Shown: positions 248-59,014 of the stretch, piece after piece
How the letters are laid out: every line of letters starts with the position of its first letter
Position numbering within the stretch: the first letter of the stretch is position 1
Assembly: GCF_025244705.1 (NCBI RefSeq)
Contig: NZ_CP104207.1
Coordinates: 3,410,001-3,474,000, forward strand
Direction of reading: 5' to 3'
DNA: 64,000 bases
Source: Sphingopyxis sp. PET50
GTDB lineage: Bacteria > Pseudomonadota > Alphaproteobacteria > Sphingomonadales > Sphingomonadaceae
Made by a program: the position numbers and the translations under genes
The notes under the pieces: model-generated
What the model was told of the DNA's origin: nothing
The model's database searches: none
What the model saw: the letters and a program-made list of their open reading frames with translations, nothing else

Positions 248-332
248 CGTTCGTGCTGAGCTTGTCGAAGCACCGCCCTTCTCTTCGACGCTGAAAGAAA
301 GAACGGCCCTTCGACAAGCTCAGGGCGAACGG
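248..332. repeat. Intergenic palindromic repeat (family A)
   Basis: An inverted repeat of about 85 bases. The arms carry GAGCTTGTCGAAG and CTTCGACAAGCTC, bounded by CGTTCG and CGAACGG. Four more copies lie at 20727-20815, 28342-28433, 29554-29637 and 46532-46616. All five are intergenic. Here it sits just past the stop codon of the outer-membrane efflux gene and could act as a 3' mRNA hairpin. Confidence 0.85.
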
Positions 333-13521: not shown

Positions 13522-13592
13522 CATCGCCCTGCAAGTCTATCCCTTGCAATCGGGGCGGATTGGTTTGAGAGACCGCTGCGAATAAAGTCCTC

Positions 13593-13699
13593 CGCTTCCC
13601 CGAGCGAAGACGAGGGGCTCGTTCGAGCGAAGCGAGAACCAGCAAAGTTGCTGCCTCGACTGCGCTCGGCATGGCCCCTCGTCTTCGCTCGGGGAAGCG
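13593..13699. repeat. Palindromic repeat element, intergenic copy (family B)
   Basis: Perfect 26-base arms (13593-13618 and 13674-13699; core CCCCGAGCGAAGACGAGGGG) surround a 55-base loop. A second copy with the same loop length and very similar loop sequence lies inside gluQRS at 42574-42670. This intergenic copy is 24 bases before the mmsA start and therefore probably in its 5' leader. Confidence 0.9.
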
Positions 13700-13722
13700 G
13701 GAATAGGGAAAGGAGTCCTTTC

Positions 13723-20726: not shown

Positions 20727-20815
20727 TTCGTTCGTGCTGAGCTTGTCGAAGCACCGTTCTTTCTTTCCGGCGCCCGAAAGAAAGGACAGCCCTTCGACAA
20801 GCTCGGGGCGAACGG
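20727..20815. repeat. Intergenic palindromic repeat (family A)
   Basis: Inverted arms CTGAGCTTGTCGAAGCACCG and CTTCGACAAGCTC separated by a C/T-rich centre, bounded by TTCGTTCG and CGAACGGG. It starts ten bases after the mmsB stop and ends near the stop of the small convergent gene, so it may terminate both. Confidence 0.8.
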
Positions 20816-28341: not shown

Positions 28342-28433
28342 CCCGTTCGGGCTGAGCTTGTCGAAGCCCCGTCCTTCCTTCTTTCGACCCTGGAAAGAAA
28401 GAACGGCCCTTCGACAAGCTCAGGGCGAACGGG
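28342..28433. repeat. Intergenic palindromic repeat (family A)
   Basis: Arms GGGCTGAGCTTGTCGAAGCC and GGCCCTTCGACAAGCTCAGG, bounded by CCCGTTCG and CGAACGGG, lie in the 118-base gap between the alcohol dehydrogenase and the APH-SDR gene. Confidence 0.85.
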
Positions 28434-37027: not shown

Positions 37028-37101
37028 TGTTCCCCGGCGAAAGCCGGGGTCCAGATGGGGCAGCGCCATTCCTCGTGGACCCCGGCTTTCGCCGGGGAAC
37101 A
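37028..37101. repeat. Intergenic palindromic repeat (family C) in a 300-base gap
   Basis: Perfect 26-base arms (37028-37053 and 37076-37101; core CCCCGGCGAAAGCCGGGG). Further inverted pieces lie on both sides (GATCCGG/CCGGATC near 37140-37180). I see no gene between 36965 and 37265. Other copies lie at 37787-37863 and 58929-59014. Confidence 0.85.
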
Positions 37102-37786: not shown

Positions 37787-37863
37787 TGCTCCCCGGCGAA
37801 AGCCGGGGCCCAGATGGTCAGCGCATCTCTCCCCAAATGGACCCCGGCTTTCGCCGGGGAACA
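37787..37863. repeat. Intergenic palindromic repeat (family C)
   Basis: CTCCCCGGCGAAAGCCGGGG and CCCCGGCTTTCGCCGGGGA arms in the gap between the lipoprotein and the convergent ppc gene. It begins four bases after the lipoprotein stop and ends five bases before the ppc stop, a likely two-way transcription end. Confidence 0.85.
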
Positions 37864-42169: not shown

Positions 42170-43183
42170 ATGCTGACCCGCTTCGCGCCCAGCCCGACCG
42201 GCGAGCTGCACCTCGGCCATGCCTATAGCGCGCTGCTCGCCTGTGACGCGGCGCGGCGCGCGGGCGGGCGCTTCCGGCTCCGCATCGACGATATCGACGG
42301 CGGCCGCTCGCGCGAGGCCTATGTCGTCGCTTCGCTGGCGGACCTCCGATGGCTCGGCATCGCTTGGGACGGCGACCCGGTGCGCCAGTCGCAGCGGTTG
42401 GGCAGCTATCAGGCGGCGCTCGACGATCTGCGCGCGCGCGGCCTGATCTACCCCTGTTTCTGCACCCGCGCCGATATCGCGGCGAGCCTTGCCGCCCCGC
42501 ACGGGCCATCGGGAGCCATCTACCCCGGCACCTGCCGCCCTTCGCAGGGTCGGGCAACACATATAACCCGCCTCCCCGAGCGAAGCCGAGGGGCTCCTTC
42601 GAGCGGAGCGAGAAGCTTCGACGTTGCTGCCTCGACTTCGCTCGGCATGGCCCCTCGGCTTCGCTCGGGGAATCGGCAAGATTTTGCTACCACGGAGTTT
42701 ATCATCGAGGAGGCCGAACGCGAGCGCCGCCTTGCGACCGAGCCGCATTGCTGGCGGCTCGACATGGACCGGGCGGCCGGTCTCGCCGGCGACCTCCAAT
42801 GGGAGGAGGAGGGGCAGGGCCCGCGCCTTGCCGACCCCCGCGCGCATGGCGATGTCGTGCTCGCGCGCAAGGACGCCCCCGCCAGCTATCACCTCGCCAG
42901 CACGCTCGACGATGCGGCGATGGGGGTGACGCACGTCATCCGCGGCGCCGACCTGATCGCCGCGACCGACGTCCATCGCCTGCTCCAGGCGCTGCTCGGC
43001 CTGCCGGTGCCGCGCTATCGCCATCATGCGCTCGTCTGCGGCCCCGACGGCAAAAGGCTCGCGAAGCGCGACGCGGCGGCCTCGCTCGCCGCGCTGCGCG
43101 CGGCGGGGATCGACGGGCGCGCGCTCGCCGCCGATCTGCTCGGCGGGCGGCTTCCCACTGGATATTCGCTGCGAATGCCCTAG
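42170..43183 (+). CDS. gluQ: Glutamyl-Q tRNA(Asp) synthetase with an in-frame palindromic insertion
   Basis: Attaches glutamate to the queuosine base of tRNA(Asp). 337 aa, about 40 more than usual. HIGH-type motif PTGELHLGHAYSALL at the start, zinc-type cysteines in YPCFCTRAD and YPGTCR, KLAKR-type loop GKRLAKRDAA. After YPGTCR the sequence leaves the family, runs through residues about 124-178 and rejoins at RRLATEPHCWRLDMDRA. The extra part contains a family B palindrome (42574-42670) read in frame as roughly residues 135-167. ATG 42170 is set by LTRFAPSPTG; an in-frame upstream extension has no homology. Confidence 0.88.
   Translation: MLTRFAPSPTGELHLGHAYSALLACDAARRAGGRFRLRIDDIDGGRSREAYVVASLADLRWLGIAWDGDPVRQSQRLGSYQAALDDLRARGLIYPCFCTRADIAASLAAPHGPSGAIYPGTCRPSQGRATHITRLPERSRGAPSSGARSFDVAASTSLGMAPRLRSGNRQDFATTEFIIEEAERERRLATEPHCWRLDMDRAAGLAGDLQWEEEGQGPRLADPRAHGDVVLARKDAPASYHLASTLDDAAMGVTHVIRGADLIAATDVHRLLQALLGLPVPRYRHHALVCGPDGKRLAKRDAAASLAALRAAGIDGRALAADLLGGRLPTGYSLRMP
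42574..42670. repeat. Palindromic repeat element inside the gluQ coding region (family B)
   Basis: Perfect 21-base arms (42574-42594 and 42650-42670; core CCCCGAGCGAAGCCGAGGGG) around a 55-base loop. Loop length equals that of the intergenic copy at 13593-13699, and loop sequence is closely similar (both contain GTTGCTGCCTCGACT). It is translated as part of GluQRS without a stop codon. Confidence 0.9.
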
Positions 43184-46531: not shown

Positions 46532-46616
46532 TCCGTTTGTCCTGAGCTTGTCGAAGGACCGTTCTTTCTTTTCGGCGGCAAAAAAACAGCCCTTCGACAA
46601 GCTCAGGGCGAACGGA
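46532..46616. repeat. Intergenic palindromic repeat (family A)
   Basis: CCGTTTGTCCTGAGCTTGTC and TTCGACAAGCTCAGGGCGAA arms in the 183-base gap after egtD. It may mark the 3' end of the egtBD transcript. Confidence 0.85.
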
Positions 46617-58928: not shown

Positions 58929-59014
58929 TGTTCCCCGGCGAAGGCCGGGGCCCATAGCGGCGTAGAGCCGACGTTTCGTTGTAAACTCTGGACCCCGGCT
59001 TTCGCCGGGGAACA
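58929..59014. repeat. Intergenic palindromic repeat (family C)
   Basis: TTCCCCGGCGAAGGCCGGGG and CCCCGGCTTTCGCCGGGGAA arms, between the inverted repeat at 58738 and the HhH gene's end. Confidence 0.8.

Follow-up and report, generated by a model that had tools for sequence, protein, structure and literature searches.

To our knowledge, the REP sequences linked to RAYT transposases, which are thought to spread them, are the short palindromic repeats for which a partner enzyme has been proposed, and the spread of most others is an old question. GIY-YIG domains are known to us as nucleases and not as transposases, and the free-standing GIY-YIG homing endonucleases are selfish genes that home into one site or intron. 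The CGTC REPs, palindromic repeats found predominantly in Alphaproteobacteria, apparently lack a dedicated transposase, a question that the authors of their survey left to future work (Di Nocera et al. 2013, PMC3733652). According to the same paper, CGTC REPs are mostly intergenic, are arranged mainly as inverted pairs and sometimes lie within genes, including those of tRNA synthetases; copies within tRNA synthetase and tRNA pseudouridine synthase B genes are given for 'E. lithoralis' and 'S. alaskensis', abbreviations that we read as Erythrobacter and Sphingopyxis, and the R. conorii repeats RPE-6 and RPE-4 are equated with CGTC REPs (PMC3733652). The Rickettsia elements (RPEs) are described as hairpins of 105–146 bp with terminal inverted repeats that are inserted in frame in conserved genes, with 19 reading frames affected (Delihas 2007, PMC2229807).

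The window considered here, that is, the whole stretch of 64,000 nucleotides of Sphingopyxis DNA that was analysed, holds a hairpin element translated within the gene gluQRS and an intergenic copy of the same element. The features concerned are as follows:

42173–43183, + strand: gluQRS, tRNA glutamyl-Q(34) synthetase with insert, 336 aa (NCBIfam NF004315, phmmer, Foldseek).
42542–42703, + strand: 54-codon insertion (162 bp), residues 124–177 (alignment with the proteins of 41 relatives; DNA of the site at 68 orthologous loci).
42542–42567, + strand: left part of the insertion, 26 bp, outside the hairpin.
42568–42676, no strand assigned: core of the hairpin element, about 109 bp, with perfect arms at 42573–42594 and 42650–42671 (arm search, folding, copies elsewhere in the genome).
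42677–42703, + strand: right part of the insertion, 27 bp, outside the hairpin.
13592–13700, no strand assigned: intergenic copy of the gluQRS element, upstream of an aldehyde dehydrogenase gene, with 27-bp arms and a 55-base loop.

The interrupted ORF scores 328.6 against NF004315 (cut-off 250) with a match that is split into two stretches, and it matches the E. coli YadB/GluQ-RS structures 1nzj and 4a91, both by phmmer and by Foldseek with an AlphaFold model. Proteins of relatives align to residues ~1–123 and 179–336, and their DNA gives two adjoining matches (among the matches listed). A gluQRS match is present in 79 of 80 Sphingopyxis genomes, the source genome counted. At 68 orthologous loci in Sphingopyxis and near relatives (53 distinct sequences, some genomes entering twice and nearly all labelled Sphingopyxis), the protein has 280–286 residues versus 336 in the source, and comparison of the site DNA finds the insert absent from all 68, as it is from all 41 relatives aligned as protein. 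A first-pass annotation of this DNA had proposed such an alignment of related strains to learn which of them lack the insert. That annotation had described a GluQRS about 40 residues longer than usual, with the additional sequence at 42541–42720: the extension is genuine but amounts to 54 residues, and the right end overshoots 42703 of the alignment, the ends themselves being uncertain by a few codons. The frame through the insert is open and stop-free, and family sequence flanks it in the protein alignment, YPGTCR on the N-terminal side and EAERERRLATEPHCWRLDM on the C-terminal side, all as annotated. The insertion is located directly C-terminal of the CRP that comes after YPGT, after the last presumed zinc ligand; C95, C97, Y117 and C121 are invariant in the alignment of the family, and we take these to be the ligands by reference to E. 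coli GluQ-RS. About 53 bp of the 162-bp insertion, i.e., the 26 bp on the left and the 27 bp on the right, resemble neither the hairpin nor GluQRS, and a fuzzy search, which covered the compared loci only, gave no convincing source for either part.

The palindrome itself was correctly recognized at first pass: its perfect arms measure 22 bp, where 21 had been counted, and enclose a loop of 55 bases. The intergenic counterpart with the same loop length and near-identical sequence, placed then at 13593–13699, is likewise real at 13592–13700, and the two copies are 88% identical across 112 nt. A search of the genome for the family, also suggested at that stage, yields at least 28 short copies in the 3.80-Mb source genome, six of them below 100 bp, and one further copy that has a gene inside it; the number of short copies is a lower bound, obtained from 40 of 86 candidates scored. 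The dispersed short form is 109–111 bp long. The source assembly is a single 3.80-Mb contig rated as only 87% complete, a value that could reflect either indel errors or a true loss of genes. Across the genus, 33 of 80 Sphingopyxis genomes (source included) match the element at E≤0.001 and 16 have at least five hits, these per-genome hits being lower bounds with both strands counted, and a sample of the family gives matches at E≤1e-6 in 18 of 298 genomes, including two from Sphingopyxis. As judged from its description, the RPE is similar to the gluQRS element with its 109-bp core, its arms of 22–27 bp and its in-frame position in a conserved gene. The CGTC REPs differ from it in sequence, since the gluQRS family begins CCGNNTCCCC and carries no CGTC (TGTC/CCTC) tag at the palindrome end. 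Insertion of the element into hairpin loops was considered and rejected, an outer inverted repeat at score ≥9 being found in 3 of 91 short-copy flanks versus ~5% in a mis-paired null. Three copies (L013, L019 and L143) are single cases of nesting, in which the longer flanks that they share (left flank similar to GTGCGTTAAACCTGAACCG, right flank similar to AGTGATTCAGATTTCACGC) pair up as an outer inverted repeat; the L310 locus discussed below gives a further instance.

The 27 other short copies in the source genome are crossed by 40 ORFs with at least 15 codons on either side. A Pfam scan took in 28 of these ORFs, from 21 of the 27 copies, the shortest ORFs being left out. Four had a Pfam domain (topoisomerase IB, aldehyde dehydrogenase, ATP-dependent DNA ligase and FliP), which in each case lies wholly downstream of the element; in the ORF crossing the copy at 13592–13700, the Aldedh domain begins after the element. 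Among 28 short copies, gluQRS is the sole conserved gene found interrupted (28 of the 40 crossing ORFs by Pfam), by a check that would miss interrupted genes lacking any Pfam domain, as well as genes that a copy had disrupted out of frame; copies in other genomes were examined for codon-position composition alone. The parallel with Rickettsia palindromic elements drawn in the first-pass annotation thus holds for size, hairpin form and in-frame insertion, but colonization of coding regions is not supported for this family in the source genome, with one in-gene copy found among 28 here versus 19 reading frames reported for the Rickettsia elements (PMC2229807). Nor are in-gene palindromic repeats new to sphingomonads, where the first-pass annotation knew of no description: REPs in tRNA synthetases of S. 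alaskensis were in print in 2013 (PMC3733652), and the in-gene insertion alone would be one more case of a kind already described.

Not recognized at first pass was a long form of the element, which carries an enzyme gene. At G000:C1:1646134-1646544 of the source genome, arms of the gluQRS family stand ~310 bp apart and enclose an ORF that starts with ATG and encodes a GIY-YIG domain (PF01541, 67.9 bits against a cut-off of 22.6; ~64 bits in the fused ORF described below). Each of the six stand-alone GIY-YIG genes identified here (E≤0.001) sits within perfect inverted arms, the longest of which measure 19, 15, 27, 16, 32 and 32 bp, and a seventh match, which falls in a long ORF interpreted as UvrC, has no enclosing arms. 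The arms of two of the six enclosed genes recur as short hairpins within the 64-kb window, belonging to families represented by the genes L242 and L241:

96–200, no strand assigned: short hairpin of a family other than that of the gluQRS element; its arms match those round the GIY-YIG gene L242 (common 27-base arm GTGCCCCTGCGAAGGCAGGGGCCCATC).
37028–37101, no strand assigned: short hairpin of the family enclosing the GIY-YIG gene L241 (arm match).
37790–37860, no strand assigned: second short hairpin of the L241 family (arm match).
58929–59014, no strand assigned: third short hairpin of the L241 family (arm match).

A further palindrome family, CTGAGCTTGTCGAAG, is frequent in the window (256–323, 20739–20804, 28352–28423 and 46541–46607). 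Its arms surround none of the six enclosed genes of the source genome and are present round genes of relatives (L304, L308, L309 and L323), and these palindromes may be an orphan family in the source genome.

An enzyme gene inside inverted copies of a palindrome, with a short paired form that is dispersed, is also the arrangement of the RAYT/REP system (REPtron) and of REPINs; the enzyme here, however, is a GIY-YIG nuclease, and the source genome has no match to the Y1/HUH family PF01797. The element likewise shares with bacterial MITEs (Correia/NEMIS, ERIC, RUP) the character of a short non-autonomous unit with inverted ends, and can be related to a gene-bearing form with the same arms (G000:C1:1646134-1646544) by a missing interior, but that form encodes no recognized transposase and a target-site duplication is not established. 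The free-standing GIY-YIG homing endonucleases are similar as stand-alone genes behaving as selfish elements, and differ in that the genes described here are accompanied by palindromic arms and by dispersed gene-less copies. A link between GIY-YIG genes and dispersed bacterial palindromes was not found among the papers listed from the open-access literature (which leaves most subscription papers and bioRxiv outside), one of which treats fungal mitogenomes; the GIY-YIG partner is therefore the part of the present findings not found in print, which is no proof of novelty.

In the long copy (L152:1235-1643), the GIY-YIG frame is stop-free up to the right arm and reads STSLGSAPRLRSGN, in the same frame as STSLGMAPRLRSGN in GluQRS. 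The long-copy frame continues into a methyltransferase of the SpoU/TrmJ type, giving one ORF with both Pfam domains. Such an arrangement recurs in relatives: GIY-YIG and methyltransferase motifs share one ORF in 11 of 11 loci, chosen from 30 for their long open frame (L390–L394, L396, L399, L400, L402, L403 and L415), and are joined via the palindromic arm or its remains; in five of the 11, the 60 codons that precede the methyltransferase motif contain no in-frame ATG, GTG or TTG. Arm scores of at least 16 were obtained for 22 of the 26 loci measured among the 30, and L396, L400, L402 and L403 fall below this value and no longer have clear arms. In L391 (genome G357), the linker between the two domains is longer and resembles an entire additional hairpin of the family, which makes it another candidate for an element translated in frame. 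By eye, C-terminal tails of GIY-YIG proteins such as STSLDTNG or STSSGRT in several families (L397–L419) fit a translation of the right arm. In several GIY-YIG families the right arm may thus be coding as well as palindromic.

Enclosure by inverted arms was tested across the genus. A search of 30 Sphingopyxis genomes with PF01541 gave 139 matches, 109 of them stand-alone, and 91 of the latter, from 26 genomes, were tested, 18 that were at contig edges, partial or weaker being left out. With the best ungapped inverted repeat between the 300-bp flanks as a measure (+1/−2 scoring, pass at ≥16), 84 of the 91 loci are enclosed, many of the 91 being mutually orthologous and hence not independent cases; the seven that fail are L247, L252, L278, L303, L314, L325 and L335. 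Controls behave differently: 0 of 25 GIY-YIG matches in long, UvrC-like ORFs (so named from ORF length, not by a UvrC-specific test) are enclosed, with a maximum score of 12, outward-shifted flanks pass in 0 of 96 cases and random intervals of the window in 4 of 1000. A class-wide draw found 13 of 22 loci enclosed, with 0 of 22 in the shifted control (among the matches listed, 7 of 29 loci with short flanks left out). In a phylum-wide draw, enclosure was observed for three of five further loci of the same class and for one of 19 outside Alphaproteobacteria (among the matches listed, one of 25 dropped for short flanks), so that the association is mainly alphaproteobacterial, in the class where CGTC REPs predominate (PMC3733652), and GIY-YIG genes do not need such arms. 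A CGTC or TGTC tag, absent from the gluQRS family, is counted by pattern on 44 of the 84 enclosing arms, two of them (L311 and L320) being bare six-letter hits; in many tagged arms an AT-first stem and a CCA-type tail come after the tag. Judged by eye and without a statistic, the arm families correspond to protein clades, the largest arm cluster being a chain of several clades.

Signs of movement are provided by genome G334, where two whole elements, gene plus arms (L310 and L312), are 99% identical over 416 bp at unrelated loci, and the identity stops 17 bp outside the left arm and 4 bp outside the right arm. The intergenic site of L310 was compared in 12 regions. The GIY-YIG element occupies it in G334, and short palindromes belonging to three other families are present there in G122, G306 and G343. 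In G353, G325, G337 and G323 the conserved blocks are 0–4 bp apart; G364 and G341 have other sequence there, G328 matches on one side and G324 was not read at this position. With the site (L452–L463) empty in four congeners and palindromes of other families elsewhere, it looks like a hotspot. A clean target-site duplication was not found, as the 68 empty gluQRS sites give no exact boundaries and the L310 locus has no sharp duplication. Of the GIY-YIG loci queried in the eight genomes listed, 37 in number, 29 have a two-sided homologous neighbourhood in another species, and from these neighbourhoods most long elements look vertically inherited; RAYT genes, too, are said to keep conserved neighbourhoods. 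A GIY-YIG at least 89% identical to that of the source occurs in five genomes (the source, G357, G346, G333 and G364), all five of which have at least five short-element hits, versus 11 of 75 others (Fisher p=1.8e-4; 9.1e-4 without the source genome, which supplied the query; kinship uncorrected). The 11 genomes with at least five hits and no close GIY-YIG relative speak against a strict dependence, and suggest that the partner may have disappeared, may have diverged or may be dispensable.

We consider it reasonably probable that the gluQRS insert is the non-autonomous form of a GIY-YIG-associated mobile hairpin, spread by the nuclease and tolerated where it landed. In the long form, a gene for a stand-alone GIY-YIG endonuclease would lie between two inverted palindromic arms, and the dispersed short form would be the remainder when that gene is missing between the arms. 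The GIY-YIG nuclease, which presumably moves the hairpin, would nick or resolve the structure that it recognizes and copy the long or the short form to new sites, by analogy much as RAYTs would spread REPs. The nuclease could instead be a hitch-hiker, if homing-type GIY-YIG parasites settle in the loops of palindromes that are spread by other machinery, and the location of most GIY-YIG elements at conserved loci, the genomes with many short copies and no close relative of the source GIY-YIG, and the single site with palindromes of several families would all fit this picture. Set against the enclosure of 84 of 91 tested loci in Sphingopyxis, the agreement by eye of arm families with protein clades and the duplication of a whole gene-plus-arms unit (L310/L312), such a role appears unlikely, although it deserves to be kept in mind. 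Mobilization in trans by an unrelated transposase, whether a RAYT or some other IS enzyme and whether extant or extinct, is decidedly improbable. It gives no reason for the GIY-YIG enclosure, and a search with PF01797 alone, which matches in 5 of 14 control genomes, gave no Y1 transposase in the source genome, on which ground a RAYT was rejected as mobilizer; on the other side, both possibilities were raised for the CGTC repeats by Di Nocera et al. 2013 (PMC3733652).

In gluQRS the inserted copy is stop-free, the insertion has a length that is a multiple of three, and its position beside the zinc site can accommodate a floppy loop; for these reasons the enzyme has probably remained functional and selection has not removed the insert. 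The AlphaFold model (35-row alignment) agrees with the surface loop expected at first pass: 214 of 336 residues, mainly in the core, reach pLDDT ≥90, residues 126–174 of the insert fall below 50 and have no predicted secondary structure, and a second low-confidence spot lies at residues 112–120, the simplest reading of the model being a tolerated disordered loop on an intact core. The open frame itself carries little weight: among 87 near-full-length copies, duplicates included, an average of 5.5 of the six frames is open, and the length is divisible by three in 37. Luck alone suffices for a stop-free in-frame insertion, which is not evidence of selection. It could therefore be argued that the insertion inactivated gluQRS and that the frame stayed open by chance. 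GluQRS is dispensable in E. coli, and because its loss is tolerated there, the gene might be dead despite its pN/pS. We nevertheless regard inactivation as rather doubtful, since the median pN/pS of the source gene against 68 relatives (0.299, rank 51 of 69) is typical of the genus, where pairs of relatives with pS >0.35 give 0.285 (5–95% range 0.208–0.351), and since the family-invariant positions are retained in the interrupted protein. By this measure relaxed selection on gluQRS is not seen; a very recent loss would escape pN/pS, and a very recent insertion would show no decay yet. The hairpin might instead work as RNA rather than as part of the protein, and reduce or modulate gluQRS expression through stalling or RNase III cleavage. 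This reading has in its favour a very stable predicted fold (−84.8 kcal/mol, with −91.0 kcal/mol for the copy at 13592–13700), but every Rfam family stays below its gathering score at this position, and we think such an action very unlikely. A known RNA family was likewise discarded as an identity for the hairpin, the best Rfam matches being miRNA models far under the gathering score. Most likely the insert has no function, and we infer that it is neutral.

These findings lead to a broader proposal, which we put forward tentatively and give somewhat less than even credence, namely that stand-alone GIY-YIG endonucleases are dedicated mobilizers of a large class of alphaproteobacterial palindromes, including the CGTC REPs and perhaps, via them, RPE-4 and RPE-6. 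If this is true, the class would be a nuclease-driven counterpart of the RAYT/REP elements, and the copies embedded in proteins, i.e., the GluQRS insert and the GIY-YIG/methyltransferase fusion, would be by-products of it. The enclosure of 84 of 91 loci offers a specific and cheaply testable candidate engine for palindromic repeats without a known one, and suggests a role for a common, little-characterized family of GIY-YIG nucleases, while the gluQRS case suggests one route by which hairpin DNA becomes translated within enzymes.
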